NCBI RefSeq assembly: GCF_013410945.1
Contig: NZ_JACCCH010000001.1
Span: forward strand, 1,178,001 to 1,242,000
Direction of reading: 5' to 3'
DNA from: Leifsonia sp. AK011
GTDB lineage: Bacteria; Actinomycetota; Actinomycetes; Actinomycetales; Microbacteriaceae
Length of the DNA stretch: 64,000 bases
Below are positions 1 to 53,507 of the stretch, in pieces. How positions within the stretch are numbered: position 1 is the first letter of the stretch; each line of letters begins with the position of its first letter. Both the position numbers and the translations under genes were made by a program. The notes under the pieces were generated by a model. It had not been told where the DNA came from. It saw only the letters and a program-made list of their open reading frames with translations, and did no database searches.

Positions 1-2171
1 TCGCCCTCGACGAGTGCGTGCCGAATGAAGAGGTCGCGAGCGAACGACGGATCGATGCGCGCGAACTGCACCCGGCGCTTTGTGATGATCGGCACGCCGT
101 ACAGGGTGACGCGCTCGTACGCGACCGCCGCGCCCTGCTTCTTCTCCCAGTGCGGCTCGGAGTAGGTGCGCTTGGCGAGGTCGCCGGCGATGGGCTCGGC
201 CCACGCCAGATCGATGGCGGCATTCACCCGAGCGAACAGGCGACTCGTCTCGACGAGCTCGGCGCTCATCACCGCGGAGGGCTGCTTCTTCGCGAGCGCC
301 GACCCCGGAAAGATCGAGAACCGCGTTCCCCGGGCCCCCGCGTAGTCCTTCTTCGCGAGGTCGCGCACGCCGATGTGGCTGAGGAGACCCGAGAGCAGGG
401 AACGGTGGATGCCCGTGGCATCCGTCGACCGGTCGCCCACCGTGAGACCCAGCTGCCTGGCCGCGCGCGAGAGCTGGCGGTAGAGGTCCTGCCACTCGCG
501 CACGCGCAGGTAGTTGAGGAACTCGGCCCGCACCCGCCGCCGGAACTGGTTGCCGCTGACCTCGCGTTGGGTGTCCTCGAGGTAGTTCCAGAGGTTGAGG
601 AGCGTGATGAAATCGCTCGTCGGGTCGGTGAAGCGCGCGTGCTGCTGGTCGGCCTGCGCGCGCTTCTCGAGCGGTCGCTCGCGCGGATCCTGGATGCTGA
701 GGGCTGCGACGATCGCGATGACCTCCCGTGTCACGCCGTAGCGCCCTGACTCCACGAGCATGCGCCCGAGCCGCGGGTCGACGGGCAGCTGCGAGAGCTG
801 TCGTCCGACCTTCGAGATCTTCATTGTGGTTGCCGGTGGTTGAGGAGTCCGCGAAGCGGACGTCTCGAAACCCCCACGAGATACGTCCAACGCCCCGAGT
901 TCCGTCAGGAGATCGACACCATCCTTGATGCCCCGGGAATCCGGCTTCTGGAGGAACGGGAAGTCTTCGATGTTCCCGAGCCCGAGCGACACCATCTGCA
1001 GGATGACCGCGCTCAGGTTGGTGCGCAGGATCTCGGGGTCGGTGAACTCGGGCCTCCTGGCGAAGTCCTCCTCCGAGTAGAGCCTGATGGCGATGCCGTC
1101 GCTCGTGCGCCCACTTCGCCCCGACCGCTGGTTGGCGCTCGCCTGGCTGATCGCCTCGATCGGCAACCGCTGGATTTTCGAGCGCACGCTGTACCGGCTG
1201 ATGCGCGCAGTGCCGGTGTCGATGACGTAGCGGATGCCCGGCACCGTGAGACTCGTCTCGGCGACGTTCGTCGACAGCACGATGCGCCGACGGATGCCCG
1301 GAGTCCGCTTGTCGAACACGCGGTGCTGGTCCGCTGCACTCAACCTGCCGTACAGGGGTAGCACCTCGGTTGTGGAGGCCCCGCGGCCGGACAAGTGCCC
1401 GCGCACTGCATCCTCGGCATCCCGAATCTCGGCCTCGCCCGACAGGAACACGAGCACGTCTCCGTCGCTCTCGCGCTCCAGCTCGTCGAGCGCATCGGTG
1501 ATGCCCTCGAGGTAATTGCGGTCCTCAGAGGGCTCGCCCTCCTCGTCCTCACTGAGTTCACCGACGAGCGGGCGGTAGCGGATCTCGACGGGGTAGGTGC
1601 GGCCCGACACCTCGATGATGGGCGCTGGGGTGCCATCCGCCGCCGCGAAGTGCCGCGCGAAGCTCTCGGGGTCGATCGTCGCACTCGTGATGATGACCTT
1701 GAGGTCGGGCCGGCGCTGGATCAGCTGCGTGAGGTAGCCGAGGAGGAAGTCGATGGTGAGGCTGCGTTCGTGGGCCTCGTCGATGATGATCGCGTCGTAC
1801 TTCTTCAGATCCCGATCGCGGTGGATCTGGGCGAGCAGCACGCCGTCGGTCATGAGGCGGATGCGCGTGCTCGGGCCGATCCGGTCGGTGAACCTCACCT
1901 GATACCCGACGAGGCCACCCACCTCCTGCCCGAGCTCCTCGGCAACTCGTTCGGCGATCGTGCGAGCGGCGATGCGCCGCGGCTGTGTGTGCCCGATGAC
2001 GTTGTAGCCGAGCTCGAGCAGCATCTTCGGCAGCTGGGTCGTCTTGCCGGAGCCCGTGGCGCCCGCGACGATCACGACCTGGTTCTCCCGGATGGCACGC
2101 ATGATGTCGTCCCGCCGCTGGCTGACGGGCAGCTCGGGCGGGTACACGATGGCAAGGGGAGTCTCAGACAT
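1..2171 (-). CDS. hrpA: ATP-dependent DEAH-box RNA helicase HrpA, C-terminus cut by window edge
   Basis: The reverse strand reads continuously from an ATG at 2171 to the window edge (about 723 residues), so the C-terminus is missing. The Walker A segment GATGSGKTTQ lies near residue 43, followed by QPRR, the DEAH box (IIIDEAHERS), the SAT motif and the QRSGRSGRT arginine-finger region, in the usual order for HrpA. The helicase-associated and DUF3418-type C-terminal regions begin downstream. HrpA unwinds RNA during mRNA or ribosome handling. Residues about 434-453, between ELGAL and the conserved GRQLSQLPVDPR, are a Ser/Thr/Pro-rich insert encoded by a copy of the dispersed repeat described separately. 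The start follows a possible -10 (TAAGCT) 9 nt upstream. Identity is clear; the insert is the only oddity. Confidence 0.95.
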   Translation of the reverse strand, partial: MSETPLAIVYPPELPVSQRRDDIMRAIRENQVVIVAGATGSGKTTQLPKMLLELGYNVIGHTQPRRIAARTIAERVAEELGQEVGGLVGYQVRFTDRIGPSTRIRLMTDGVLLAQIHRDRDLKKYDAIIIDEAHERSLTIDFLLGYLTQLIQRRPDLKVIITSATIDPESFARHFAAADGTPAPIIEVSGRTYPVEIRYRPLVGELSEDEEGEPSEDRNYLEGITDALDELERESDGDVLVFLSGEAEIRDAEDAVRGHLSGRGASTTEVLPLYGRLSAADQHRVFDKRTPGIRRRIVLSTNVAETSLTVPGIRYVIDTGTARISRYSVRSKIQRLPIEAISQASANQRSGRSGRTSDGIAIRLYSEEDFARRPEFTDPEILRTNLSAVILQMVSLGLGNIEDFPFLQKPDSRGIKDGVDLLTELGALDVSRGGFETSASRTPQPPATTMKISKVGRQLSQLPVDPRLGRMLVESGRYGVTREVIAIVAALSIQDPRERPLEKRAQADQQHARFTDPTSDFITLLNLWNYLEDTQREVSGNQFRRRVRAEFLNYLRVREWQDLYRQLSRAARQLGLTVGDRSTDATGIHRSLLSGLLSHIGVRDLAKKDYAGARGTRFSIFPGSALAKKQPSAVMSAELVETSRLFARVNAAIDLAWAEPIAGDLAKRTYSEPHWEKKQGAAVAYERVTLYGVPIITKRRVQFARIDPSFARDLFIRHALVEG
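838..872 (-). repeat. Dispersed TTGAGTAG-type repeat, in-frame copy inside hrpA
   Basis: This 35-bp copy begins GGTTGAGGAG and ends TCTCGAAACC, matching the ends of the intergenic copies at 2208, 4586 and 9198. Its core GTCCGC-GAA-GCGGAC is a perfect 6-bp hairpin. It lies wholly inside the hrpA reading frame and is translated without a stop. Confidence 0.8.
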
Positions 2172-2207
2172 GAGCCTTACAGCTTAAGGCTTCGAGACGC
2201 ACCCGCG

Positions 2208-2246
2208 GGTTGAGTAGGCGCGGCGAAGCCCGCCGTCATCGAAACC
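2208..2246 (+). repeat. Dispersed TTGAGTAG...TCGAAACC repeat
   Basis: A 39-bp copy lies between the divergent hrpA and hydrolase genes. It has GGTTGAGTAGG at one end, CATCGAAACC at the other and a GC-rich hairpin-forming core (GGCGAAGCC). It lies just upstream of the hydrolase promoter. Confidence 0.8.
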
Positions 2247-2281
2247 TCACCACCGTGACCGTCTCCCCGATACCCTCAACC

Positions 2282-3055
2282 ATGAGCTGGTTCCCCAGGC
2301 GTCTCCCACTCCTCAACGTGGTGGAAGACATGGGTGAGGGTCCGGTGGTCATACTCATCCACGGCATCGCCTCCTCGTCGGTCACGTTCCAGAACGTGCT
2401 GCCACTCATCCGCGACACGCACCGCTGCATCACGATCGACCTGCTCGGCTTCGGTACCTCTCCGATTGTCGAGGACTGCGACTACACGCTCGCCGACCAC
2501 GCGAACGCGATTCGCCGCACCATCCAGCACTTGCGGTTGAAGCATCCCTTCACCCTCGTCGGTCACTCGATGGGGTCGCTCATCGCTGCGCGCTACGGCG
2601 CTCGCTGGCCGGGTTCCGTGAACAAGCTCGTGCTCGTGAGCCCGCCCATCTACCTCGCGCCGGGCGAACTCTCCGATGACCTCGAACGCGGGCGGATGGA
2701 TTTCTACCTCAAGGCGTACAAGTTATTTCGGGAAAACAGGGACTTCACGCTCCAGAACGCGGCCATCGTGGAGCGCTTCCTCGCGATCCCCAAGGCGATG
2801 GACATCAACGCCCGCACGTGGACGCCATTCGTGAAGTCCCTGGAGAACTCGATCGAGTCACAGACCACCGTCAGCGATATCGCCAACGTTCAGGCGCCGG
2901 TCGAGATCGTCTACGGCTCCTTCGACCAGTTCGCGTCGGAGGGCTCGATGCGGATCGTGTCCAGGATGCGCGGGGTGGAGGTTCATCGCGTCTCCGCGAG
3001 CGACCACCTCATCGGGAAGCGGCTGGCTCGGGTTGTGGCGCAGGCGATCGGCTAG
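2282..3055 (+). CDS. Alpha/beta-fold hydrolase
   Basis: A 257-residue alpha/beta hydrolase. The oxyanion-hole motif HG is at residues 27-28 and the nucleophile elbow GHSMG has Ser96. The likely acid is the Asp in YGSFDQF and the base is the His in SASDHLIGK near the end, completing the Ser-Asp-His triad. There is no signal peptide, so it acts in the cytosol. The substrate cannot be told from sequence; esterases, lyases and haloperoxidase-like enzymes share this layout. I chose the ATG at 2282 over upstream in-frame starts because homology begins there and a TACCCT element lies 5 nt before it. Its 3' end overlaps the convergent transporter by 47 bp. Confidence 0.85.
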   Translation: MSWFPRRLPLLNVVEDMGEGPVVILIHGIASSSVTFQNVLPLIRDTHRCITIDLLGFGTSPIVEDCDYTLADHANAIRRTIQHLRLKHPFTLVGHSMGSLIAARYGARWPGSVNKLVLVSPPIYLAPGELSDDLERGRMDFYLKAYKLFRENRDFTLQNAAIVERFLAIPKAMDINARTWTPFVKSLENSIESQTTVSDIANVQAPVEIVYGSFDQFASEGSMRIVSRMRGVEVHRVSASDHLIGKRLARVVAQAIG

Positions 3056-3902
3056 GGCGAGCGGCGAACTGACCCACGAGTACGCCCAGCAGTACGAGCA
3101 CGATCCCGATGATCTGGTTGACCCCGAGCACCTCACCCACGAGGAGGGTGCCGAGCAGGACGCCTGTCACCGGATTGAGCAGCCCGATCACTCCCACAAC
3201 TCCGGCAGGCAGGTGCCGCAGGCCCGCGAACCAGGCGACGAAGGCGACCGCCGTGCCGATCACGGTGATGTCGACGAAACCCCAGAACGATCCCGCGTCG
3301 AGCGCTGGCGGGGCTCCCTCCACCACGAGAGCGACGGGCGCCAGCAGGATCGAGCCCGCGATGAGCTGCCAGGCTGTGCTCGCCAGGAGCGGGACATCCC
3401 CGCCCCATCGCCGGGCAAGGAGGAAGCCGACCGAGGAGCTCGTCATCGCGGTGAGTGACACCACAACACCCCAGCCGTTGATCTCCTCGCCGCCCGGCGA
3501 GAGCATGACCGCGACGCCAGCGAACCCGATGGCAGCGCCGATCACCGAGACCAGTTGCGGGCGTTGCGAGAGCAGCGGCCAGGCGAGCACGAGGATGACA
3601 CCAGCCGACGTGGCCATCACGGTGGACGCGATGCTTGAGGGCAGCAGCTGGGCCGCGAGGTACACGAGTACAAAGAAGGCGCCGATGTTGAGCACGCCGA
3701 GCACGAGCGACTTCCACCACCACGAGCCGGTCGGCAGGCGGCGGGCGAGCGCGAGAAGAATGAGGCCGGCGGGCAGCGCGCGGATGAGCGCACCCCAGAG
3801 CGGATGCTCGGCGGGCAGTAGCGCGTGGGTGACGACGTAGGTCGATCCCCACGCAATCGGTGCGATGGCCGTGACGAGCATCCATCGCCAAGTATTTTCC
3901 AT
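3009..3902 (-). CDS. EamA/DMT-family transporter
   Basis: A 297-residue membrane protein with about ten hydrophobic segments in two EamA repeats. It is typical of drug/metabolite transporters of the RhaT/YdcZ-like superfamily that export amino acids or other small metabolites. Signature features are the N-terminal APIAWGSTYVVTHALLP segment and the second repeat with LNPVTGVLLG. Two starts are possible: ATG 3911 with a GGAAG ribosome site, or ATG 3902 with TAGTAT 7 nt upstream. I prefer 3902 because leaderless spacing is common in this window. It is divergent from a MarR regulator and shares an operator region with it, so the regulator probably controls it and senses its substrate. The C-terminus is Pro/Ser-rich. 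Confidence 0.88.
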   Translation of the reverse strand: MENTWRWMLVTAIAPIAWGSTYVVTHALLPAEHPLWGALIRALPAGLILLALARRLPTGSWWWKSLVLGVLNIGAFFVLVYLAAQLLPSSIASTVMATSAGVILVLAWPLLSQRPQLVSVIGAAIGFAGVAVMLSPGGEEINGWGVVVSLTAMTSSSVGFLLARRWGGDVPLLASTAWQLIAGSILLAPVALVVEGAPPALDAGSFWGFVDITVIGTAVAFVAWFAGLRHLPAGVVGVIGLLNPVTGVLLGTLLVGEVLGVNQIIGIVLVLLGVLVGQFAARPSRSPAPQPEPAASR

Positions 3903-42003: not shown

Positions 42004-43788
42004 ATGGCACACCTTCTCGGCGCTGAGGCGCTTCACCTCGAATACCCCACTCGCGTCATCTTCGACAGCGCCACCGTCGGCCTCGACGAGGGCGACCGCG
42101 TCGGCATCGTCGGTCGCAACGGCGACGGCAAGACGACGCTTCTCAGGATGCTCGCCGGCCGACTCGAACCGGACTCCGGTCGTGTCACCCGCCGCGGTGG
42201 GGTGACGCTCGGGATGCTCGACCAGGCCGACGAGCTCGCGAGCGGTCTCACGGTGCACCAGACGGTCATCGGCGATATCGACGAGCACGTCTGGGCTGGG
42301 GATCCGAAGGTCCGGGACGTCATCGCGGGTCTCCTGCCGGGCATCCCGTGGGAGGCGCTCGTCGACGACCTGTCCGGCGGGCAGCGTCGACGCGTCGCGC
42401 TCGCCGCCGTGCTCATCGGCGACTACGACGTGATCTTCCTCGACGAGCCCACGAACCACCTCGACGTCGAGGGCATCGCGTGGCTCGCCGGGCACCTCAA
42501 GAAGCGCTGGTCGGCCAACGCGGGTGGACTCGTGGTCGTGACCCACGATCGGTGGTTCCTCGACGAGATCTGCACCGCGACGTGGGAGGTCCACGACCGC
42601 CTCATCGAGCCCTTCGAGGGCGGTTACGCCGCCTACATCCTGCAGCGCGTCGAGCGCGACCGGATGGCATCCGTCACCGAGGCCAAACGCCAGAACCTCA
42701 TGAAGAAGGAACTCGCGTGGCTGCGGCGCGGTGCGCCGGCGCGCACGGCGAAGCCGAAGTTCCGCATCGACGCCGCCAACGAGCTCATCGAGAACGAACC
42801 GCCCGTGCGCGACACCGTGAGCCTGGCATCCATGGCCATGCAGCGCCTCGGCAAGGACGTCGTCGATCTCGAGGACGTCAGCGTGTCCTTCGAGGGCAAG
42901 GATGTGCTGCGCGACATCACCTGGCGCATCGCTCCGGGGGAGCGCACCGGCATCCTCGGTGTCAATGGCGCAGGCAAGAGCACGTTGCTCAGCCTCGTCT
43001 CCGGAACTCTCCAGCCCACGAGCGGCCGGGTCAAGCGGGGCAAGACGATCAAGGTCGCCACCCTCACCCAGCAGCTCTTCGAGCTCGAGGACATCTGGAA
43101 CGATCGCGTCAGCGACGTCATCGGTCGCCAGCGCAGTACCTACGTTGCGGGTGGCAAGGAGATGACGCCCGGCCAGCTGCTCGAGCGCGTCGGCTTCTCC
43201 AGCGCCCAGCTCGCGACCCCGGTCAAGGATCTCTCGGGTGGCCAGAAGCGTCGGCTCCAGCTGCTGCTGATCCTGCTCAGCGAGCCCAACGTGCTCATCC
43301 TCGACGAGCCGACCAACGACCTCGACACTGACATGCTGGCGGCGATCGAGGACCTCCTCGACAGCTTCCCCGGCACGCTCCTGGTTGTGAGCCACGACCG
43401 GTACCTGATCGAGCGCGTCACTGACCAGCAGTACGCGGTGATGGATGGCGGGTTCCGCCACCTTCCGCGCGGCGTCGACCAGTACCTCGAACTGCGCACG
43501 GCCCAGATGAAGGGTGGTGGTTCATCGGCACCCACGGCGACCGCTGCTCCCGCCACCTCGAAGCTCAGTGGTGCTGAGCTTCGGAACACCCAGAAGGAGC
43601 ACGCGGCGGCCGGTCGCAAGATCGACAAACTGAACGGCCAGATCGCGGAGCTCCACGAACGGATGGCCACCCACGACCAGTCGGACTACACGGGCATCGG
43701 CGCGCTCGCTGACGAGCTGCGCGAACTGCAGGCGCAGCTCGAGACGGTGGAGACGCGCTGGCTGGAGCTCGAGGAGCTGCTCGGCTAG
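42004..43788 (+). CDS. ABC-F family ATPase (Uup-like)
   Basis: A 594-residue soluble protein with two ATPase domains and no membrane part. The first has Walker A GRNGDGKTT and signature DLSGGQRRR with DEPTNHLD. The second has GVNGAGKST and LSGGQKRRLQ with DEPTNDLD. A linker of about 60 residues joins them, and a charged coiled-coil tail (ELRNTQKEHAAAGRKIDKLN and on) ends the protein, as in Uup. ABC-F proteins act on ribosomes or DNA branch points. The gene commonly follows ispE in actinobacteria but here is 5.5 kb away. Confidence 0.93.
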   Translation: MAHLLGAEALHLEYPTRVIFDSATVGLDEGDRVGIVGRNGDGKTTLLRMLAGRLEPDSGRVTRRGGVTLGMLDQADELASGLTVHQTVIGDIDEHVWAGDPKVRDVIAGLLPGIPWEALVDDLSGGQRRRVALAAVLIGDYDVIFLDEPTNHLDVEGIAWLAGHLKKRWSANAGGLVVVTHDRWFLDEICTATWEVHDRLIEPFEGGYAAYILQRVERDRMASVTEAKRQNLMKKELAWLRRGAPARTAKPKFRIDAANELIENEPPVRDTVSLASMAMQRLGKDVVDLEDVSVSFEGKDVLRDITWRIAPGERTGILGVNGAGKSTLLSLVSGTLQPTSGRVKRGKTIKVATLTQQLFELEDIWNDRVSDVIGRQRSTYVAGGKEMTPGQLLERVGFSSAQLATPVKDLSGGQKRRLQLLLILLSEPNVLILDEPTNDLDTDMLAAIEDLLDSFPGTLLVVSHDRYLIERVTDQQYAVMDGGFRHLPRGVDQYLELRTAQMKGGGSSAPTATAAPATSKLSGAELRNTQKEHAAAGRKIDKLNGQIAELHERMATHDQSDYTGIGALADELRELQAQLETVETRWLELEELLG

Positions 43789-43810: not shown

Positions 43811-44818
43811 GTGCAGTCAGCCTCCGCTCGAATCGCCGGTCTCGGCGTGTACCTGCCGGAGAGCACTCGGGCGACCGAGCAGACCGAGCGCGACCTCCGT
43901 GCGGCAAACCCCGACCTGAAGCTCGCGACCGGCCTCATCGGGCGCATGACCGGTGTGCGCAGCGTCCACCTGCGACCCGATGGCTGGCAGACCTCCGACC
44001 TCGCCGTCGCCGCGGCCCGCGACGCCCTCGCGGAGTCGCCCGGCGAGATCGACCTGCTCCTCTTCGCGAGCGCCAGCCAGGACCTCATCGAGCCGGCCAC
44101 GAGTCACATCGTCGCCGCGAAACTCGGGCTCACGTGTCCTGTCATGGACATCAAGAACGCCTGCAACTCGGTGCTCAACGCCATGCAGGTGGCCGAGGCA
44201 CTCATCGCGGCTGGCCAGTACCGCCGCGTGCTCATCGCGAGCGGTGAACAGCCCTCGCACGCGGTGCGCTGGGAGCTGACCGACCACGACCAGTTCATCC
44301 GGTCCTTCCCCGGGTACACGATGAGTGATGCGGGTGCCGCCGTGATCCTGGAGGCGACGGATGACGCGAGCACTGGCATCCTCGATTCGTCCTTCATCGC
44401 GGCGTCCGCGCACTGGGACGTCGGCACACTCCCCACCGGCGGGTCGATGAACCCCCGTGGTGGCGACGGGTCGTACTTCGACATGGATGGCGCGGGCCTC
44501 CAGCGTGCGTTCCTCGAGCTCGGTGCACAGCCCGTCCTCGACCTCCTCGCACGCAACGATCTGACGTGGGAGGACATCGATCTTGTGGCGATCCACCAGG
44601 TGGCGCTGCCCTATCTGCCCCCGATCTTCGAGCGTCTGGGCGTCGCGAGCGACAAGTCGGTCATCACGGTGGAGGACCACGGAAATCTCGCCTCGGTCAC
44701 GATTCCGCTCCAGATAATGAGGGCGCGTGACGCACAAATGGTGAAACCGGGTAGTCTTATGCTGCTCGTCGGGCTGGCGGGGGGCATCAGTCTGGGACTC
44801 ATGATCGTTCGCATGTAG
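43811..44818 (+). CDS. OleA-like thiolase-fold condensing enzyme (KAS III family)
   Basis: A 335-residue beta-ketoacyl synthase III-type protein. The catalytic triad is Cys118 (IKNACNSV), His262 (AIHQVALPY) and Asn292 (DHGNLAS). Glu94 in DLIEPATSHIV sits where Xanthomonas OleA has the Glu (117) that enters the partner active site in the Claisen condensation of two fatty acyl-CoAs; FabH has a Phe-Pro motif there. Glu-to-Cys spacing is 24 residues against 26 in OleA, and NAC around the Cys is shared. It therefore probably makes a 2-alkyl-3-keto acid rather than acting in ordinary fatty-acid initiation. OleC- and OleD-like genes follow 3-6 kb downstream. Confidence 0.85.
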   Translation: MQSASARIAGLGVYLPESTRATEQTERDLRAANPDLKLATGLIGRMTGVRSVHLRPDGWQTSDLAVAAARDALAESPGEIDLLLFASASQDLIEPATSHIVAAKLGLTCPVMDIKNACNSVLNAMQVAEALIAAGQYRRVLIASGEQPSHAVRWELTDHDQFIRSFPGYTMSDAGAAVILEATDDASTGILDSSFIAASAHWDVGTLPTGGSMNPRGGDGSYFDMDGAGLQRAFLELGAQPVLDLLARNDLTWEDIDLVAIHQVALPYLPPIFERLGVASDKSVITVEDHGNLASVTIPLQIMRARDAQMVKPGSLMLLVGLAGGISLGLMIVRM

Positions 44819-44870
44819 CCGAACCTGCTAGTTTGTTGTGAATCCCGCCACCTACGAAAGGTCCGACGCG

Positions 44871-45866
44871 ATGTCCGCACGCCGAACCACAGCACGTTTC
44901 TCACTCGCCACCGTCATGATCGCGGCGCTCGCGCTCGGCGGTGCTGCCGCCAGCTCGTCCGCAGTGGGCGAGCCCGATGGCCTCTACTCCGCTACCTCCG
45001 ACGACGGCGGTAGCAACTTCGTCCAGCTCGACAAGTCGACGGCTGCCGCTACCAACCTCAGCGGCCCGCTCGCGGGTCGCGAGATCCGTTCCGTTGAGGT
45101 CGTCAACGGCGTCGGCTACGCCGTCGGGCAGTCCGAGGGTGTCTGGTCGGTCTACACGTGGGACATCGCCTCGGGCGCCATCCTCACGTCGGCGACGCTG
45201 ACCGCGGCCGGGTTCGAGCCCGGAAGCTTCGAGGTCTTCGCCCTCGACACCACCACCGACGGAACCCTGCTCACCTACTTCCGTGCCGGCAGCGAACTGA
45301 ACTCCCAGCTCTGGATCGTGTCCGTCGACCCCGTGTCCGGTGTCATCACCCCGCTGGTTGACCTCACCAACGTCGACTCCGATCTCGAGGACCGCAGGAT
45401 CTTCGAGGGACTCGCCACCAACCCCGTCACGGGTGTCACGTACGCCCTCGCCGACTACGACGATGGCATGCCGGCGTACTCGCCGGTTGACCTCTCCGCG
45501 GGAACCGTCGGTGCCTACGAGGCACTCACGGGCATCCAGTCGAGCGTGGGCCCCGGCTACCTCCGCGAGGGCGATTTCGACGCCGAGGGTGTGCTCTGGT
45601 TCGTCTACAGCGGCGAGGGCAGCGGCGTCGCGCGCACCAACGGACCGACCGAGGTAGGCACGGAGGCAACCCCACTGGGCGAGCCCGAGATTGAGAGCAA
45701 GGCCATCACGATCGGCCAGACGGTCGTCGCCCCGGCTCCTGCCCCCGCACCCGAGCCGCAGCTCGCGGCGACCGGCTTCGACGCCGCTCCGCTCTTCGGC
45801 GGCGCTGGCGTGCTCCTGGCAGCAGGTCTCGGCCTGCTCCTGGTTCGCCGTCGCGCGACGGTCTAA
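44871..45866 (+). CDS. Sortase-anchored surface protein (LAATG), beta-propeller-like
   Basis: A 331-residue exported protein. A signal peptide (about residues 1-32, ending SSSAVG) precedes a region of repeated beta strands (GLYSATSDDGGSNFVQLD, LWIVSVDPVSGVITPLVDL) like those of beta-propeller or repeat-like domains. The end has a Pro-Ala linker, the sorting motif LAATG, a hydrophobic helix and RRRATV, the layout expected for class E sortase substrates. ATG 44871 has GAAAGG 9 nt upstream; a GTG at 44838 is possible but lacks a ribosome site. No sortase gene is in the window. A strong terminator follows. Confidence 0.85.
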   Translation: MSARRTTARFSLATVMIAALALGGAAASSSAVGEPDGLYSATSDDGGSNFVQLDKSTAAATNLSGPLAGREIRSVEVVNGVGYAVGQSEGVWSVYTWDIASGAILTSATLTAAGFEPGSFEVFALDTTTDGTLLTYFRAGSELNSQLWIVSVDPVSGVITPLVDLTNVDSDLEDRRIFEGLATNPVTGVTYALADYDDGMPAYSPVDLSAGTVGAYEALTGIQSSVGPGYLREGDFDAEGVLWFVYSGEGSGVARTNGPTEVGTEATPLGEPEIESKAITIGQTVVAPAPAPAPEPQLAATGFDAAPLFGGAGVLLAAGLGLLLVRRRATV

Positions 45867-45880
45867 CAACCACCAGCTCC

Positions 45881-45930
45881 AGCAGACGCGGCACTCTCGC
45901 CTTCGGGCGGGGTGCCGCGTCTGCTATTTT
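45881..45930 (+). terminator. Rho-independent terminator whose T-tract doubles as a -10
   Basis: A 14-bp perfect stem (45881-45894 with 45912-45925), extended by a partly paired GGCG/CGCC top, is followed by ATTTTC. The same bases, TATTTT (45925-45930), lie 8 nt before ATG 45939 of the next operon and resemble its -10 element. Confidence 0.75.
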
Positions 45931-45938
45931 CGGCGAGT

Positions 45939-46700
45939 ATGGACACCTCCGGAAAGCTGACCGTGGTGGTTCCGGTGTTCAACGAGGCTGCGGGCATCCG
46001 CCCCACCCTCGAGGCGCTCGCTCGACAGCGTGACAGCGACTTCGACGTTGTCTTCGTCGACAACAACTCCACGGATGACTCGGCCACCGTCATCACGGAT
46101 TTCGCGGCCGAGCACGGCCTCCCGTGGCGCGTCGTACTCGAGCCCCAGAAGGGCACGGGTGCCGCGGCCGACACGGGGATGCGCGCTGCCATCGCCTTCG
46201 GTGCGACCATCCTGGCGCGCACCGACGCCGACTGCATCCCCCGGGAGGACTGGACCGCGGCCATCCGCCGCTCGCTCACTACGGGCGGCCTGCGCCTCGT
46301 CGGGGGCGAGCTCGTGCCACGACGCGACGAGGGTCTGCCCTGGACGACCCGTGCCCTCCTGCGTGGCGCTGTGCATCTCGCCGAGGCCTTCGGGCGGGTG
46401 CGCAAGGGCAACCGCGACCCCGCCTACCGCGGCCCGTACATGATGGCGGCCGGATGCAACGTGGGCATCACCGCGGAGCTCTACGAGGCGGCCGGCGGCT
46501 TCCCGCGCACCGCCATCGAGGATCTCCACGAGGACCGCGCCCTCGTCAACGCCGTGCGCCGCATCACGAGCCGCTACGCACGTCGCTCGGATGTCGTCGT
46601 CTACGGGTCCTCCCGGCGGGTGAACGCCTGGGGCCTGAGGAACACCCTGCTCTGGTACAAGGACCACGCCTACAAGCCAGAGCACGTGGACATCCGGTGA
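45939..46700 (+). CDS. Family 2 glycosyltransferase
   Basis: A 253-residue soluble GT-A enzyme. The N-terminal strand LTVVVPVFNEAAGI, VVFVDNNSTDDS (first Asp pair) and ILARTDADC (DxD) are standard GT2 motifs. A later IEDLHEDRALV may supply the base. There are no membrane helices. It is the first gene of the operon with P450, OleC-like and OleD-like genes, overlapping the P450 start by 4 bp (GTGA), so it probably glycosylates the cluster's lipid product or an associated carrier. Donor and acceptor are unknown. Confidence 0.87.
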   Translation: MDTSGKLTVVVPVFNEAAGIRPTLEALARQRDSDFDVVFVDNNSTDDSATVITDFAAEHGLPWRVVLEPQKGTGAAADTGMRAAIAFGATILARTDADCIPREDWTAAIRRSLTTGGLRLVGGELVPRRDEGLPWTTRALLRGAVHLAEAFGRVRKGNRDPAYRGPYMMAAGCNVGITAELYEAAGGFPRTAIEDLHEDRALVNAVRRITSRYARRSDVVVYGSSRRVNAWGLRNTLLWYKDHAYKPEHVDIR

Positions 46701-47833
46701 CGCGCGCAGCCGCCTGGGAGCGTCGGGTGCTCCGCGCAGCGCACCCCGTCGCGGTGCCCGCGTTGAGTGCCTCCCGCCGTCCGGTGCAGCGAGTGCCGCG
46801 CCTGGGGGTTCTGGTGCGGGATGCCACGATCCTCCGCTCCGTTCTCATGGACACCGAGCATTTCTCCAAGACGGGTCCCGGTGCACCGAGCGACCTCTGG
46901 ACGCCCGTTCTAGGGCCCTCCGTGCTCCTCAACATGGAGGGCGCGGATCATCTGGCCTTGAGGCGCAGGCTCGGGCCGTTGTTCTCGCCCGCCTACGTGG
47001 ACCCGCTTGTCGCGGCATCCCTGCCGAGCGCCCGGCTGACCGCGCGATTGCGGGCCGGTGAGCGAGTCGACCTCGTGACGGAGGCGAAGCGCAATGCGAG
47101 CATCATGATCAGCCAGCTCGTCGGACTGTCGGCCGAGCAGGTGGATGACGCCCTCTTCGAGAGGGTGTCATCGATCACGCGATTCGTGCGGCTCTCGCGT
47201 CCGCGTCTGACCGATGCCCAGGCGGCTGTCGCGCGCGCCATCCTCGCCGACCTCACCGCGCACGCTCGCACCGCCTGGCGCGACGGTGATGAGAGCACGG
47301 TGCCCGGTCGCATGCGCGCGCTCGGTCTCGGGGAGGAGGAGGCGATGGGCGCCGTCGGGGCGTTCGTGCTCACCGGGACGGAGACTCTGGTCTCGTATAT
47401 CCCGCGCCTCATCGCGCTGCTCATCGACAGCGAGTGGATGCCACGGCTCGCCGCCGACGCGACACTAGTCGAACCCGCCATTGCCGAGGGCCTCCGCGTG
47501 ACCACGCCCTCGCCCGTGATGCTGCGGAGCGTCGTGTCGGGCGCGCGGATCGGTTCCGTCGACGTGCGGGCGGGGGAGCGGGTCATCCTCGCGACGTTCC
47601 TCGCCAACGGAGCGCTCGGCGGGTTCGACCCTGCCAGCAACCCCGCGGCATCCCTCAAACAGCTCTGGTTCGGGGCTGGCAGTCATTTCTGCCTGGGGGC
47701 CCCGCTCGCGATGGCGCAGACGCGGGCGACGCTCGGTGCGCTGCTCGAGGCAGGCCCGCTGCGCGTCGTGTCGCGGCGCGCGGCCCGCGGGGTGCTCATC
47801 CCCTCGTACGCGAGCCTCGTGGTGTCAGCATGA
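46697..47833 (+). CDS. Cytochrome P450 (first of two paralogues)
   Basis: A 378-residue bacterial class I-type P450, somewhat short at the N-terminus. The heme loop is LWFGAGSHFCLGAPLA with Cys332. The I-helix segment is FVLTGTETLVSY with the conserved Thr, and the ExxR motif is EGLRV. The end, GVLIPSYASLVVSA, closely matches the end of the P450 at 51616 (VLIPAYASLVVQKA), so the two arose by duplication. It overlaps both neighbours by 4 bp, placing it within the OleC/OleD operon. It probably hydroxylates or desaturates the acyl substrate or product. Ferredoxin partners are not encoded nearby. Confidence 0.9.
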   Translation: MTRAAAWERRVLRAAHPVAVPALSASRRPVQRVPRLGVLVRDATILRSVLMDTEHFSKTGPGAPSDLWTPVLGPSVLLNMEGADHLALRRRLGPLFSPAYVDPLVAASLPSARLTARLRAGERVDLVTEAKRNASIMISQLVGLSAEQVDDALFERVSSITRFVRLSRPRLTDAQAAVARAILADLTAHARTAWRDGDESTVPGRMRALGLGEEEAMGAVGAFVLTGTETLVSYIPRLIALLIDSEWMPRLAADATLVEPAIAEGLRVTTPSPVMLRSVVSGARIGSVDVRAGERVILATFLANGALGGFDPASNPAASLKQLWFGAGSHFCLGAPLAMAQTRATLGALLEAGPLRVVSRRAARGVLIPSYASLVVSA

Positions 47834-49359
47834 CCGACATCCTCCGCGCGCTGCTCGACTCGTGCGACCGCACCCCGGACGCTCCCGCCCTGACGTTCCG
47901 GAGGACGACACTCCGCTACAGCGACCTCCGCGACCGGATCCAGGGCGTGGCGTCCTCCCTGACGTTGCGAGGGTTGCGCCCCGGGGACCGCGTGCTGTTC
48001 TCCGTACGCCCGGGCATCGACGCGATCGTGCTCGCGCTCGCGCTTATCGCGGCCGGTGGAACTGTCGTGTTCGCCGATCCGGGGGCTGGCGACGAGTTGT
48101 TCCGCGCACGTGCGAGGCTCGTCGCGCCGAGGTGGGTGGCGGCCGAGTCGGTGTTGTACGCCGCGTCATCCGGCCCGCTTCGCGGCATCGCGCGACGCCG
48201 GGGCATCGAACTGCCCGACTACGGGGCGGTGGTTCCGGATGCCCGGCACGTGTACAGCGGACCGTGGCTGCCTGGGGTGCCTCACGGCGCGTTGAGCCTC
48301 CGGTGGTTCGGCGTGAACCGACGCCCGGGACGGGCGTCGGCATCGTGGCGAGGGCCGGACATGGCCTTCGCTCCCAGCTCCAGCGCCCCGGCGGAAGCGC
48401 TGATCATCTTCACGTCGGGCACCACCGACGACCCCAAGGCGGTCGTGCACTCGCGCGAGTCACTCGGCACGGGTCTCGACGACTTCGCGACGGCGGTCGG
48501 ATTCGTCGCGGGGGAGCGTGTGCTCACTGACCAGCTCATGGTGGGCATCCCCGCGCTCATCTCGGGTGCGCACTGGGAGCTTCCCCCGCCAGGCCTCGAC
48601 CCCGGGGCGAGGCCGGAGCGGTACCTCGCACTGCTGCCGAGGGCCGACGTGCTGTTCACGGTGCCCGCTGCACTCGATGCTCTACTCGGGATGCTCGAGA
48701 CCCGCCCCGACCTCACACCTCGGCTGCGCGCACTCCTCATCGGCGGGGCTCCCGTGCTGCGACCACTCCTCGAGCGAGCGCGCCGGCTGCTGCCGAACAC
48801 CACGATTCGCGCGATCTACGGCATGACGGAGATCCTGCCGGTCGCGATCGCCGATGGCGACGAGAAGCTCGCGTTCGACGGCACGGGCGACTACGTCGGT
48901 CGGGTCATGCCCTCGATTCGCGCGGCCATCGTCGACGGCGAGCTTGTGGTCGCGGGCCCCGGCCTCGCCGACTATCTCGGCACGCCCCTCGCCGAGCTCC
49001 GCACGGGTGACCTGGCCACACTCGACGGCGACAGGCTCGTGCTCGCGGGTCGAGCCAAGGACATGTTCATCCGCGGCACCACCAACGTGTACCCGGGCCT
49101 CTATGAGCCGGTGATCGCGGGCCTCCCGGGCGTCCGTGCTGCGGCGCTCGCCGGCATCCCGAACGACATCGGCGACGACGAACTCGTGCTCGCCCTGGTG
49201 CTGGATGCCGCGGGCTCCGTCGATGTCGTGCGCGCTGCCCTCCCCGGTCTCATCGACGCTGCCGTCCTGCCCGACCGCATTGTTGTGCTCGACGCCCTCC
49301 CCACGAAGGGGCGCAGTTCGAAGCTCGACCGTGCCGCTCTCGCGGAGGTGCTGCGATGA
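47830..49359 (+). CDS. OleC-like AMP-dependent ligase (putative beta-lactone synthetase)
   Basis: A 509-residue ANL-superfamily enzyme. The P-loop is IIFTSGTTDDPKAVVHS (near residue 192), and the A5 motif is YGMTEILPVA (Tyr330), close to the YGATExLPVA pattern of OleC beta-lactone synthetases. TGDLATLDGD follows. An N-terminal GGTVVFADPGAGDELFRA also resembles OleC. The final Lys (TKGRSSKLD) is present. OleC converts a 2-alkyl-3-hydroxy acid to a beta-lactone; an acyl-CoA or acyl-AMP ligase role is the alternative. Residues about 163-186, just before the P-loop, are encoded by an in-frame repeat element. It overlaps both neighbours by 4 bp. Confidence 0.85.
   Translation: MTDILRALLDSCDRTPDAPALTFRRTTLRYSDLRDRIQGVASSLTLRGLRPGDRVLFSVRPGIDAIVLALALIAAGGTVVFADPGAGDELFRARARLVAPRWVAAESVLYAASSGPLRGIARRRGIELPDYGAVVPDARHVYSGPWLPGVPHGALSLRWFGVNRRPGRASASWRGPDMAFAPSSSAPAEALIIFTSGTTDDPKAVVHSRESLGTGLDDFATAVGFVAGERVLTDQLMVGIPALISGAHWELPPPGLDPGARPERYLALLPRADVLFTVPAALDALLGMLETRPDLTPRLRALLIGGAPVLRPLLERARRLLPNTTIRAIYGMTEILPVAIADGDEKLAFDGTGDYVGRVMPSIRAAIVDGELVVAGPGLADYLGTPLAELRTGDLATLDGDRLVLAGRAKDMFIRGTTNVYPGLYEPVIAGLPGVRAAALAGIPNDIGDDELVLALVLDAAGSVDVVRAALPGLIDAAVLPDRIVVLDALPTKGRSSKLDRAALAEVLR
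48318..48385 (-). repeat. In-frame copy (B2) of the two-hairpin repeat inside the OleC-like gene
   Basis: It aligns with 9318-9386 in a row. The first stem (48318-48327 with 48331-48340, loop GGA) is perfect; against B1 it differs by a C-for-T and a matching G-for-A. The second stem (48348-48357 with 48362-48371) keeps pairing through two G-T positions. It is translated as RRPGRASASWRGPDMAFAPS without a stop. Confidence 0.75.
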
Positions 49360-50252
49360 GGGTGGCGGTCACGGGAGCCAGTGGGTTCGTGGGCGGCGCG
49401 GTCGCGTCGGCCCTGGCATCCCGCGGGCACGACGTCACGGGCTTCGGTCGCAGGCCGGGCGGGTGGGCCGACGGGCACTACGAGCAGTGGGACCTCGCCG
49501 ACGGTCCTCGCGCCGGGAGTTTCGACGCCGTTGTGCACAGCGCGGCCCTCGCCGACGACTGGGCCGACCTCGGCCATGCCATGCTCGCGAATCGGCTCGG
49601 CACCCGCACGGTCGTCGCGAGCTTTGCCGGTGCCCGAATCGTCCACATCTCCACGTCGAGCGTCTACGACGCGTTCGCCCCGAATGTTCGAGTGCGGGAG
49701 GATGCGCCGCTGCCCACCCGGTTCCTCAGCGCATACTCCGAATCGAAGGCCTCTGCCGAGGCCGAGCTGCCCGCGGATGCTGTGATCCTCCGCCCCCATG
49801 CCGTGTACGGCCCCGGCGACACGACGCTCCTGCCGCGCATCCTCGCGGGCATCCGCGGGTCGCGGCTCGTGCTCCCGAACGGTGCGCGGGTGAGGCACAC
49901 GCTCACCCACATCGACAACCTCGTGCACGCCGTCGAGGTCTCCCTCGTCGGCCCGGCTGGAACCTACAACATCGGTGACGACACCGAGGTGCTGCTGTCA
50001 GCGGTGCTGGGGGAGTTCCTCGCGCGTCGGGGCCGGGCGGATGTCACGATCACGAGCATCCCCTACGGCGCTGCCTTCGCAGCTGCCGCCGCCCTCGAGC
50101 GAGTAGCGCGACTGCGCGGAATCCGCCCTCGCCTCACGCGCTACGCCGTGAGCCAGCTCGGTCTCGAGCGCACCCTCGATCTCACTGCCGCTCGAGAGCG
50201 TCTCGGCTACGTGCCAGGTCCGACGACGTTGGACGGTGCCGAGAACTGGTGA
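49356..50252 (+). CDS. OleD-like NAD(P)-dependent reductase/epimerase
   Basis: A 298-residue extended short-chain dehydrogenase. The cofactor loop is VAVTGASGFVGGAV. The catalytic SAYSESK region (Tyr-x-x-x-Lys) is at about residue 128, followed by ILRPHAVYGPGDTTLLPRI and THIDNLVHAVE. The end, LTRYAVSQLGLERTLDLTAARERLGYVPG, tracks OleD, which reduces the 2-alkyl-3-keto acid to the 3-hydroxy acid before lactone formation. Overlap with the OleC-like gene (ATGA) supports one pathway. A sugar epimerase is the main alternative, and a glycosyltransferase is in the operon, but the flanking motifs fit OleD better. Confidence 0.85.
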   Translation: MRVAVTGASGFVGGAVASALASRGHDVTGFGRRPGGWADGHYEQWDLADGPRAGSFDAVVHSAALADDWADLGHAMLANRLGTRTVVASFAGARIVHISTSSVYDAFAPNVRVREDAPLPTRFLSAYSESKASAEAELPADAVILRPHAVYGPGDTTLLPRILAGIRGSRLVLPNGARVRHTLTHIDNLVHAVEVSLVGPAGTYNIGDDTEVLLSAVLGEFLARRGRADVTITSIPYGAAFAAAAALERVARLRGIRPRLTRYAVSQLGLERTLDLTAARERLGYVPGPTTLDGAENW

Positions 50253-50263
50253 ACAAGAACTAG

Positions 50264-50291
50264 CGACAGTACAGCGAACGCTGTACTGTCG
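50264..50291. promoter_or_regulatory. CmtR-type operator, perfect 13-bp palindrome over the -10
   Basis: Arms 50264-50276 and 50279-50291 are perfect, with an AA spacer. The right arm contains TACTGT (50284-50289), which lies exactly 6 nt before ATG 50296. Bound repressor would cover the -10 element of its own leaderless gene. Confidence 0.7.
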
Positions 50292-50295
50292 AGGT

Positions 50296-50622
50296 ATGTT
50301 GACGGTTGCTTCGAAGCTTGAGGTCATGCACCGGCTCGGTCGTGCCATGGCGGACCCGACGCGGTCACGCATCCTGTTGCGTCTCCTCGAGGCACCGAGC
50401 TACCCGGCCGCGCTTGCCGCCGAACTGGATCTGACCCGCCAGAACGTCTCCAATCACCTCGCCTGCCTCCGCGACTGCGGCATCGTCGTGGTCGAGCCGG
50501 AGGGTCGGCAGTCCCGCTACGAGATCTCCGATCCGCTCATCGCGCACGCGCTCAGCGACCTGCTGCAGGTCGTGCTCCAGGTGGATGACGCGGCCGCCAC
50601 CCACGACCCGGAGTGCTGCTGA
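50296..50622 (+). CDS. cmtR: ArsR-family metal sensor, CmtR type
   Basis: A 108-residue winged-helix repressor. The recognition helix region TRQNVSNHLACLRDC holds Cys57 and Cys61, at the same positions as the Cd/Pb ligands of Mycobacterium CmtR. The third ligand (Cys102 there) has no exact match, but the protein ends PECC with Cys107 and Cys108. Thus it probably senses Cd(II), Pb(II) or a similar soft metal and releases DNA when loaded. It overlaps by one base (TGATG) the CDF exporter it probably controls. The ATG at 50296 is chosen because homology starts there and the -10 spacing fits. Confidence 0.9.
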   Translation: MLTVASKLEVMHRLGRAMADPTRSRILLRLLEAPSYPAALAAELDLTRQNVSNHLACLRDCGIVVVEPEGRQSRYEISDPLIAHALSDLLQVVLQVDDAAATHDPECC

Positions 50623-51536
50623 TGAGTCACGACCACGATCACGGCGCCGCGTCCTCCGGGCGTGGTCGCCTCGCGATCGCGTTCGGCATCACCGCGGTCG
50701 TGCTCATCGCCGAGCTCATCGGTGCCGCGATCACGGGTAGCCTCGCGCTCCTCGTCGATGCTGCCCACATGCTGACGGATGCCGGTGGCCTCGCGATCGC
50801 GCTTGCCGCTGCATCCCTCGCCTCCCGCCCCGCCACCGCACGACGCACGTGGGGATGGGACCGCGCCGAGGTGCTCGGCGCAACGGCCCAGGCTGCCATC
50901 CTGCTGGCGGTCGGTGTCTTTGTGCTCATCGAGGCGGTGCGACGTTTCTTCGAGCCGCCCGAGATCGTCGGTGGCGAGCTCGTCATCTTCGGTGTGATCG
51001 GCCTGCTCGGCAATGTCGCCGCGATCATCGTGCTCGCCTCGGGGCGCACCGCCAACATGAACATGCGCGCGGCGTTCCTCGAGGTGCTGAACGACGCGCT
51101 CGGCTCGGTCGCCGTCATCGTCGCGGCCATTGTTATCGCGGTCACGGGTTTCCAGCTCGCGGACGCGATCGCGGCCGTCCTGATCGGACTGCTCATCATC
51201 CCGCGCGCGGTCATCCTCCTGCGGGACACCACGAACGTGCTGCTCGAGTCCACCCCGAGGGGGCTCGACCTCGACGCCGTGCGCACCCACCTGCTCGAGG
51301 TTCCGCACGTGCAGTCGGTGCACGACCTGCACGTGAGCCAGATCGCGACGGGACTACCCGTGCTCACCGCGCACGTCGTCGTCGACGACACGTGCTTCTA
51401 CGACGGACATGCCCCCCGCATGCTCGACCAGCTGCAGGGATGCGTCGCGAAGCACTTCGACGTGCAGATCGAGCACTCCACGTTCCAACTGGAGCTCGCC
51501 GCGCACGCCGAGCACGAGCATCCCACCCACGACTAA
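50622..51536 (+). CDS. Cation diffusion facilitator metal exporter (CzcD/ZitB-like)
   Basis: A 304-residue CDF transporter with a short His-rich N-terminus (SHDHDHG), six helices and a cytosolic C-terminal domain ending EHEHPTHD. The transport-site motifs are LLVDAAHMLTDAGG (HxxxD) in helix 2 and FLEVLNDALGS (NxxxD variant) in helix 5. It exports Zn, Cd or Co by proton exchange. The second site has Asn where many zinc carriers have His, which in other CDFs shifts metal choice. It is the second gene of the cmtR operon. Confidence 0.92.
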   Translation: MSHDHDHGAASSGRGRLAIAFGITAVVLIAELIGAAITGSLALLVDAAHMLTDAGGLAIALAAASLASRPATARRTWGWDRAEVLGATAQAAILLAVGVFVLIEAVRRFFEPPEIVGGELVIFGVIGLLGNVAAIIVLASGRTANMNMRAAFLEVLNDALGSVAVIVAAIVIAVTGFQLADAIAAVLIGLLIIPRAVILLRDTTNVLLESTPRGLDLDAVRTHLLEVPHVQSVHDLHVSQIATGLPVLTAHVVVDDTCFYDGHAPRMLDQLQGCVAKHFDVQIEHSTFQLELAAHAEHEHPTHD

Positions 51537-51607
51537 CCCCCGCGAAAAGCCACTTGTCGGGGCTCTTCCGACGCAACACCCTCAGTAAGTGCTTTCTCGC
51601 GGGGGTT
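51535..51607. repeat. Long-stem inverted repeat, second copy of the CCCCCGCGA family
   Basis: Arms 51535-51555 and 51587-51607 pair with a few mismatches. The left arm and loop start (CCACTTGTCGGGGCTCTTC) match the element at 39721. It begins inside the CDF stop codon and ends 8 bp before the convergent P450 stop. Confidence 0.75.
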
Positions 51608-51615
51608 GGGGCGCC

Positions 51616-52860
51616 TCAGGCCTTCTGCACGACGAGCGACGCGTACGCCGGGATGAGCACTTTGCGACCGTAGCGGCGCGACACGATGCGGAACGGTCGG
51701 CCATCGCCGACGAGCATCCCGAGGACCGCGTCGAGCTCGGCCCGCGCGAGAGGCCCACCGAGGCACAGGTGCCGCCCGGCCCCGAACCACAGCTGCCGGT
51801 TCTGCGGGATGTACGGCCGGTCGACCCGGTACTCACCCGCGAGGTTGTTGGCAGTCCACGTGAGCACCATGATGCGCTCGCCCGCCCGCAGCGTGCGCCC
51901 GCCGATCTCCAGGTCGGCGAGCACCGAGCGCCCGATGAGTGGGGCGGGGGATGTCACGCGCAGCGCCTCGCGCACGGCGTTCTCCCGCAGCTTGGGGTTC
52001 TCGATGAGCCGGTGCTGCTCGCCGGAGTCGTACAGGAGCGCAGCCATCCTCGCCATCGCGGAGGCCGCCGTCTCCGTGCCCGCCACCATGAGCAGCGTCG
52101 ACAGGCCCTTCGTCTCGGTGATCGAGAGCCCGAGGTCACGGCAGCGCCCGATGATGGTGTCGCCCGAGGCGGTCGCGAAGACGGCGTCGATGTGTCCGGT
52201 CAGTCGCTCCACGATCGCCCGGGCCGTCGCGATCTTCTCGGGCGGCAGCACCGTGTCGGCGGTCGTGCCGAGGGCGATGGATGCCAGCTCCTCGCCGGTC
52301 TCGAAGATCTCCCGGTACGCGGCATCCCCTCGACTGGCCTCCACCGGCAACCCGAGCAGGGTGACGACCATCTGGCCCACGAGGATGCGGCTGAGGTCGG
52401 CGAGGTCGATGGGCTCGCCCGCTTCGAAGGCCGTTCTCGCGGAGTCGAGTCGACCACCCCAGGCGTGCTCGACGAAGGTCGCGCTCGTGCGCTCGGTGAA
52501 CAGCTCGCGACTGCGGGTGCGGAGGTCGTAGTGGCCTGGGCCGTCGAAGAGGTCGTAGACCCAGTCGCCGAGGATCTGGGCCCAGAGATGGCCTACGCCG
52601 CCCTCGCTCAGGAGGGTGAAGTGGTCGGGGTCGTTGAGTACCGCGCGGGCGGTGAGCGGGTCGGAGGTTATCCAGCCGAGACCTGGCACCTTCATAATCG
52701 GGCGGGCGAGCATCCCGAGCCAGTTGAGGTACGGGAGCGCGGGGCGAGCTGCGCTGAGCAGCCGGTGCTCGTGAGCCCTCGCACTGCGGCCGAGGCCGTC
52801 GAGGAGCGGATTGAGCGTTCGCTCGCGGGTGGGTGCTGTCAGGTCCTCGGCTACGGGCAC
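51616..52860 (-). CDS. Cytochrome P450 (second paralogue)
   Basis: A 414-residue P450 with the heme loop LWFGAGRHLCLGGPLA, I-helix LLMVAGTETAASAM and ExxR EALRV. Its tail VLIPAYASLVVQKA is shared with the P450 at 46697. It is transcribed toward the ole-like operon and separated from it by the metal-resistance pair. A role in the same lipid pathway is inferred from paralogy and position only. The GTG start at 52860 has TAGATT 6 nt upstream. Confidence 0.9.
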   Translation of the reverse strand: MPVAEDLTAPTRERTLNPLLDGLGRSARAHEHRLLSAARPALPYLNWLGMLARPIMKVPGLGWITSDPLTARAVLNDPDHFTLLSEGGVGHLWAQILGDWVYDLFDGPGHYDLRTRSRELFTERTSATFVEHAWGGRLDSARTAFEAGEPIDLADLSRILVGQMVVTLLGLPVEASRGDAAYREIFETGEELASIALGTTADTVLPPEKIATARAIVERLTGHIDAVFATASGDTIIGRCRDLGLSITETKGLSTLLMVAGTETAASAMARMAALLYDSGEQHRLIENPKLRENAVREALRVTSPAPLIGRSVLADLEIGGRTLRAGERIMVLTWTANNLAGEYRVDRPYIPQNRQLWFGAGRHLCLGGPLARAELDAVLGMLVGDGRPFRIVSRRYGRKVLIPAYASLVVQKA

Positions 52861-52877: not shown

Positions 52878-53507
52878 ATGTCCGACGTCCGCTCACGATA
52901 TCGCCGCATCTTCGATGACGGCTCAGACACCGAGCGCATGGTGTTCTTCAGCGATGCCGTCTTCGCCATCGCCATGACGCTCCTCGTGATCGACCTTGCT
53001 GTGCCGGAGGACCGGGACGGTACCGCAGGAGAGGTTCTCCTCGGTCTCTGGCCGAACTTCCTCGCGTACGCGTTGTCGTTCACGATCATCGCCATCAACT
53101 GGGTGGCCCACTACCGCCGCTACCGGGTCATCAAGACCCACGATCCCGTGCTGTTGCTGCTCAACCTCGTGCTGCTGTTTTTCGTCGCGCTGCTGCCGTT
53201 CCCGACGAGCCTCCTCAGCTCCTACAGCGGCCAGGCTCCTGCGGTCGCGCTCTACGCGTTCGTGGTCGGCCTCCTGAGCGCCCTGCAGTGGGCGACCTGG
53301 CAGTACGCGTACTCGAAGGGGATGGTCGACAAGGCCGTCGACGAGGGGCTGTTCCGCTGGGTGCGTCTCAACCAGCTGACCGTCCCGCTCGTGTTCTGGG
53401 CCTCGATACCCATCGCGCTCCTGTGGGACGGCGGCATCGCCATGTGGTTCTGGTTCGCGCTCTTCCCCGTGAACTTCATCACGGGCCGCATGAGTCGCCG
53501 CTACTAG
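52878..53507 (+). CDS. TMEM175-family potassium channel (DUF1211)
   Basis: A 209-residue membrane protein with six predicted helices. The first helix carries the family signature RMVFFSDAVFAIAMTLLVIDL (the FSD selectivity-filter motif). INWVAHYRRYRVIKTHD follows in the third segment. Bacterial TMEM175 proteins form tetrameric K+ leak channels. The single repeat of six helices is normal for bacteria. It shares a 17-bp divergent promoter with the second P450. Confidence 0.9.
   Translation: MSDVRSRYRRIFDDGSDTERMVFFSDAVFAIAMTLLVIDLAVPEDRDGTAGEVLLGLWPNFLAYALSFTIIAINWVAHYRRYRVIKTHDPVLLLLNLVLLFFVALLPFPTSLLSSYSGQAPAVALYAFVVGLLSALQWATWQYAYSKGMVDKAVDEGLFRWVRLNQLTVPLVFWASIPIALLWDGGIAMWFWFALFPVNFITGRMSRRY

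Follow-up and report, generated by a model that had tools for sequence, protein, structure and literature searches.

An OleA-containing operon of Leifsonia sp. AK011 with an OleC-unlike ligase, and its possible role in the synthesis of an oxidised, glycosylated 2-alkyl-3-hydroxy lipid

Which product is made by an operon that joins an OleA-type condensing enzyme and an OleD-like reductase to a ligase, a glycosyltransferase and a cytochrome P450, in a genome where OleB was not found? The question is raised by a 64,000-nucleotide stretch of the Leifsonia sp. AK011 genome (the window), in which these five genes lie together and a gene for a second P450 lies close by on the opposite strand. From comparison with related loci we propose, at a probability of roughly 0.5, that the operon makes a mycolate-like lipid with a 2-alkyl-3-hydroxy skeleton that is also oxidised and glycosylated; its synthesis would be started by OleA. 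All six open reading frames (ORFs) reported in a sequence-only reading of the window were recovered at identical positions, and its three 4-bp overlaps exist (GTGA at 46697-46700, ATGA at 47830-47833 and ATGA at 49356-49359).

Condensing enzyme and ligase

The first gene (43811..44818, + strand) encodes a KAS III protein of 335 aa with a Pfam ACP_syn_III domain. The hallmark of OleA is Glu117-Pro, in which the glutamate is a general base supplied by the other subunit. The equivalent Glu94-Pro95 was present in all 99 KAS III sequences compared, comprising that of the window, those of 80 loci (the best 80 of 383 relatives in a scan of named genomes, on which the counts out of 80 are based) and 18 more. 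It aligns with the Glu-Pro of canonical OleA, whereas a FabH-like protein from the same genome has Thr-Pro at this position. The catalytic residues Cys118, His262 and Asn292 were each conserved in 99/99 sequences, but are common to FabH and not decisive alone. An AlphaFold model was closest to OleA structures (X. campestris OleA), nearer than to FabH. On the NCBIfam models the protein stayed below both cut-offs, with 150 bits on the OleA-type NF006720 (cut-off 285) and 155 bits on the FabH-type model (cut-off 249); one canonical OleA from Micrococcales scores 420 bits on NF006720. The Glu-Pro motif, the Cys-His-Asn residues and the model nearest to OleA bear out the assignment of the condensing enzyme to the OleA type, and a FabH duplication was rejected on the motif together with the structure. 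Judged by these features, the enzyme would condense two acyl-CoAs non-decarboxylatively. Elsewhere, an OleA-OleBC-OleD locus (L089, 2152-6762; L and G numbers denote loci and genomes) has an OleA that is FabH-like by model score yet carries Glu-Pro, and this protein may connect canonical OleA with the OleA of the cluster.

The ligase (47830..49359, + strand; 509 aa, Pfam AMP-binding) belongs to the AMP-dependent (ANL) ligases and had been described as OleC-like. We derived an OleC signature from 35 sequences, consisting of A10 RH[NA]xKI (33/35), A3 TSGST (31/35) and a divergent A8; the two sequences without the A10 motif are L243 and L250, the frames of which may be wrong. Neither the A10 nor the A3 motif of OleC occurred in any of 92 cluster ligases, and the strict A8 pattern GRx[KR]DMxxRxxxN[IV]YxGL[YFH]EP was found in 80 of these 92 and in 0/35 OleC. 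Some genomes are represented twice in both sets; one unrelated ligase (L154 at 1666) and the decayed ligase of L022 are counted among the 92. OleC loci without an ORF by the search pattern were omitted, namely 9/30 in the signature count and 12/30 in the motif comparison. In the ligase tree, cluster ligases and OleC form separate clades (support 100/99 and 100/100), the sister relation of which is neither shown nor rejected (AU, approximately unbiased test, p 0.46). Searches for the best PDB sequence with the ligase, the operon's P450 and the reductase gave general family matches only. The description as OleC-like thus fails both by clade and by the A3, A8 and A10 motifs, and with it the beta-lactone step loses its main support. 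The A8 region of the cluster ligases is acyl-CoA-synthetase-like and, because A8 matters for the thioester-forming state of a ligase, these proteins look like acyl-CoA or acyl-AMP formers.

A different product has been predicted for a comparable region of Actinoplanes atraurantiacus, described as encoding OleA, a glycosyltransferase, OleC, a P450 and OleD without OleB, namely a glycosylated beta-lactone (Smith et al. 2020, PMC7064751). Applied to the window, this would mean that OleA and OleD act, the ligase closes the lactone, the P450 hydroxylates and the glycosyltransferase adds the sugar, with the lactone as end product since OleB is lacking. The shared domain set and shared lack of OleB, as published, and the position of the ligase next to OleD, as in ole loci, agree with such a route. 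Two further observations favour the lactone over our own proposal: the tree test is compatible with a common origin of the cluster ligases and OleC, and nearly all of the OleC compared come from OleB-bearing loci, so that a lactone synthetase acting in a pathway without OleB might differ from them. Against the lactone stand the missing OleC signatures, the use of a different, F390-synthetase-like ligase by relatives (see below) and genome G416. Its OleC (L227) has the signature, yet its best OleB-like match reaches 79 bits, compared with 113-185 bits for stand-alone OleB in six ole loci; no other genome hints that the OleC signature outlasts the loss of OleB. On balance, we regard a glycosylated, hydroxylated beta-lactone as an unlikely product.

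Conservation and exchange of the surrounding genes

All five genes occurred together in 58 of the 80 loci, GT2 in 67 and the ligase in 64, with median gaps of 15-30 bp between neighbouring alignments. This places the arrangement beyond chance, and a chance neighbourhood was rejected on the same count. Four loci run off the contig inside the cluster (L115, L156, L111, L141) and L176 has a gap. A reductase for which canonical OleD was the best query was not scored as OleD in the five-gene count, and several Herbiconiux loci hence entered it as KAS III and P450 only. The relatives belong to the Microbacteriaceae, Micrococcaceae, Promicromonosporaceae, Cellulomonadaceae, Lentzea, Saccharothrix, Saccharopolyspora, Streptomyces and others. 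Within the family, a ligase match at E 1e-20 was found in 12 of 150 sampled genomes, the own genome included; in two genomes of the same genus within this sample the ligase was not found at that threshold. The order KAS III-GT2-P450-ligase was kept in all nine examined loci of the family sample that have KAS III (L017-L021, L023-L026), and seven of these also have the reductase. In a class-wide sample, the KAS III profile matched 22 of 340 genomes at E 1e-90. Among the 18 of these loci that were read, 12 contained GT2 and the ligase, five were ole loci with OleA, OleB, OleC and OleD (L279-L282, L295), and in one, near a contig end, KAS III alone was seen. Co-conservation of the genes, which the sequence-only reading had proposed to check, is borne out by the five-gene count and by the order kept across the family sample. 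GT2 is fused to the P450 in one ORF of L090 (6631-8589) and to the ligase in one ORF of L283 (10286-12643). At the usual cluster site of L022 (G114, 150-3525), a lone ligase stands behind an ABC-F gene, with TNGTS in place of TSGTT and the A10 lysine lost; it is probably an operon remnant.

The operon's P450 (P450a; 46697..47833, + strand, 378 aa, Pfam P450) has intact catalytic motifs. The heme cysteine, ExxR and GTET were kept in 100/100 aligned homologues, a set that includes some genomes twice and leaves out L289-L293. The second enzyme (P450b; 51616..52860, - strand, 414 aa, Pfam P450) is a paralogue, as had been noted, with 38% identity to P450a over 389 columns. It is accessory and was found at more than 75% coverage in 34/80 loci, none of which lacks GT2 (L110 and L146, with a short or 29% match, were excluded); its heme motif was present in 35/35 sequences. 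P450-derived glycosyltransferase activators (TIGR04515) are characterised by loss of the heme cysteine. P450b scored 78.5 bits on this model, below the cut-off of 343, and a role as a pseudo-P450 helper of the glycosyltransferase was rejected as the heme cysteine is kept; for P450a, the full conservation of its motifs likewise argues against an inactive helper. The family 2 glycosyltransferase (GT2; 45939..46700, + strand, 253 aa, Pfam GT2) has a DADC motif that was found in 63/68 homologues, and inspection by eye revealed no obvious transmembrane segment.

KAS III and P450a without GT2 and the cluster ligase were found in 13 of the 80 loci and additionally in L091 and L093. These 15 loci are here called type II; the 13 come from Herbiconiux, Agromyces, Psychromicrobium, Microbacteriaceae bacterium 3FA27C10 and Corynebacterium-like bacterium B27. 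A homologue related to F390 synthetase, another adenylate-forming family, stands beside KAS III-P450a in 13/15 of them, scoring 289-374 bits on TIGR02304 in L091, L093 and L132 (cut-off 252). It was not seen in L125 and L138, the extracts of which start close to the genes, and the ligase homologue of L121 was given no family, its scanned frame probably being wrong. The type II reductases fall in another OleD-like clade in 11/15 loci and in the cluster clade in two (L093, L132). A GT21-type glycosyltransferase and homologues of an EryCIII-like protein are carried by L091, L134 and L138. Around the same OleA-P450 pair, adenylation is thus provided for by different kinds of enzyme, and so is glycosylation in some lineages. 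In the Psychromicrobium-type locus a protein combining ATP-grasp and GNAT-type acetyltransferase domains is inserted (L132, 6687-8972; L093, 5007-7307), and perhaps serves amide formation. A gene of the Sap (sulfolipid-1-addressing) family adjoins the Herbiconiux type II locus L121 (5762-6502), a hint of glycolipid export.

Reductase and OleB

The last gene of the operon (49356..50252, + strand) encodes an NAD(P)-dependent reductase of 298 aa (Pfam NAD-epimerase). Its best NCBIfam model is NF042422 (OleD, 2-alkyl-3-oxoalkanoate reductase) with 114 bits, below the cut-off of 580, a value reached in 0/248 genomes of the order; as the OleD model scores best, a sugar epimerase was rejected. In the reductase tree, the cluster proteins form a clade of their own, separate from canonical OleD, into which one short-chain dehydrogenase/reductase of the same genome falls on a very long branch. 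The label OleD-like is therefore retained in the sense of the best model, but not as membership of the canonical OleD clade.

A profile search of the whole genome for OleB gave no match at E 1e-8. The same profile detected OleB in G350, which is independent of it, at E 1.8e-117, and also matched G179 and G344, both of which had contributed rows to it; with these positive controls, the earlier statement that OleB is lacking now extends to the genome. The weakest of the stand-alone OleB lies between OleC and OleA in L282 (113 bits), and matches of at least 113 bits were taken as strong. Of 29 genomes with a full cluster, three have a strong OleB (L143, L109, L160), and the best match under this threshold (G403, 94 bits) could go either way. 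In eight clusters no reductase was seen near the genes, and for six of these the genome encodes a strong OleB (Agrococcus L133, L139, L140, L149 and G119, plus G157; G119 was assigned to Agrococcus by its genus number, and G049 and L139, apparently one genome, were counted once). In two other Agrococcus loci (L135, L136) the reductase is present and a strong OleB absent, and L143 has both. That the reductase goes unseen mostly where a strong OleB exists fits a cluster reductase that can be replaced by canonical OleD. Two cases do not fit, namely L283/G632, which lacks OleB and OleC, and L290/G580, which has OleC without a strong OleB, and kinship reduces these counts to few independent events. 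The same pattern bears on the idea that the substrates of KAS III are short or aryl acyl units and the product is a small glycosylated secondary metabolite instead of a long-chain lipid. We consider this improbable: most clusters without a reductase (6/8) have a canonical ole locus in the same genome, the nearest KAS III genes outside GT2 clusters sit in OleA-B-C-D loci, and the enzyme has the Glu-Pro motif.

Predicted product and relation to known systems

In the pathway that we propose, a head-to-head condensation of two acyl-CoAs by OleA would give a 2-alkyl-3-keto acid, which OleD would reduce to a 2-alkyl-3-hydroxy acid with a skeleton like that of mycolic acids. P450a, with P450b where present, may oxidise an alkyl chain, and GT2 may transfer a sugar onto a hydroxyl. 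The ligase, rather than closing a beta-lactone, would form an acyl-AMP or acyl-CoA, either supplying OleA with a (possibly hydroxylated) acyl-CoA or passing the finished acid to an acceptor. A stricter version of this proposal fixes the order, with the P450 hydroxylating a free fatty acid, the ligase converting it to a CoA ester, and OleA, OleD and GT2 following. It is in line with the acyl-CoA-synthetase-like A8 motif, with the use in type II loci of a different adenylate-forming family instead of this ligase and with acyl-CoA as the described substrate of OleA (PMC7158056), but GT2 and the ligase are kept as a pair in type I loci and are fused in one relative, both of which fit a late step better. 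We regard this fixed order as rather unlikely. Where the sequence-only reading had offered an oxidised, perhaps glycosylated beta-lactone or 3-hydroxy lipid, its OleA and OleD-like enzymes and the lack of OleB stand, and its beta-lactone is weakened by a ligase that is not OleC.

In mycolic acid synthesis, Pks13 makes a 2-alkyl-3-hydroxy acid, often on a sugar. The condensing enzyme there is a different one, and the likeness to the window lies in the predicted end product only. More broadly, the loci could represent a modular family of actinobacterial pathways in which OleA and OleD take the part of Pks13 and the products are mycolate-like 2-alkyl-3-hydroxy glycolipids. Its core would be OleA, nearly always together with a P450, while ligases (OleC-unlike ANL or F390-synthetase-like), reductases and glycosyltransferases would be swapped between lineages, and the published beta-lactone prediction would be wrong. 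This wider view is tentative, and we hold it with less than even confidence.

The canonical oleABCD and oleA-oleBC-oleD loci of Micrococcales share with the window the OleA-type and OleD-type enzymes with an ANL ligase between them. The window differs in lacking OleB, in a ligase outside OleC and in the additional GT2 and P450s. The oleACD beta-lactone pathways (lipstatin, nocardiolactone), as presented in PMC7064751, likewise lack OleB. Their ligases LstC and NltC, compared by description only, are counted as OleC, whereas the window ligase has no OleC signature. The A. atraurantiacus region has the same five domain types as the window, in a genome described as having no OleB candidate, and its OleA acted on p-nitrophenyl hexanoate (PMC7064751). 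The published order is OleA, glycosyltransferase, OleC, P450, OleD, compared with OleA, glycosyltransferase, P450, ligase, OleD in the window. The A. atraurantiacus-type order was found in L289, L291 and L292, and in L293 with a second GT2; the ligases of L289, L291 and L292 have no OleC signature, A. atraurantiacus being likened to them by its published description.

Given that prediction, the gene set is not new, and the view that no described pathway has this exact set is withdrawn. PMC7064751 was the only description of such a gene set found in the literature search, and the main text of PMC7158056 contains no occurrence of P450 or glycosyl. As far as the searches show, what is new within this literature is the breadth of distribution, the OleC-unlike ligase, its replacement in type II loci, the fusions and the reductase pattern. 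OleA clusters without OleB have been regarded as producing drug-like beta-lactones (PMC7064751). Should the ligase have a function other than beta-lactone synthesis, such labels given on domain content (AMP-binding beside OleA and OleD) would be wrong, and a glycolipid family may have gone unrecognised in actinobacteria ranging from the Microbacteriaceae to Streptomyces. With the A3/A8/A10 signature, OleC and the cluster ligase can be told apart quickly by sequence.

Other genes surround or interrupt the operon. A protein of the signal/anchor type without a family match (44838..45866, + strand, 342 aa) lies between KAS III and GT2. The distance between these two genes is below 300 bp in 65/66 loci, and an ORF similar in position and N-terminus occurs in Salinibacterium soli (L104, 10079-11038); the protein is probably interposed and outside the pathway. 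The ABC-F ATPase upstream (42004..43788, + strand), a chromosomal neighbour in many Microbacteriaceae, is not thought to be part of it either. Directly behind the reductase and before P450b are two overlapping genes (50236-51536), one for a Cd/Pb-sensing regulator of the CmtR type, which exceeds the NCBIfam cut-off, and one for a cation diffusion facilitator (CDF) efflux protein; a TMEM175-family potassium channel-like gene adjoins P450b (52878-53507).

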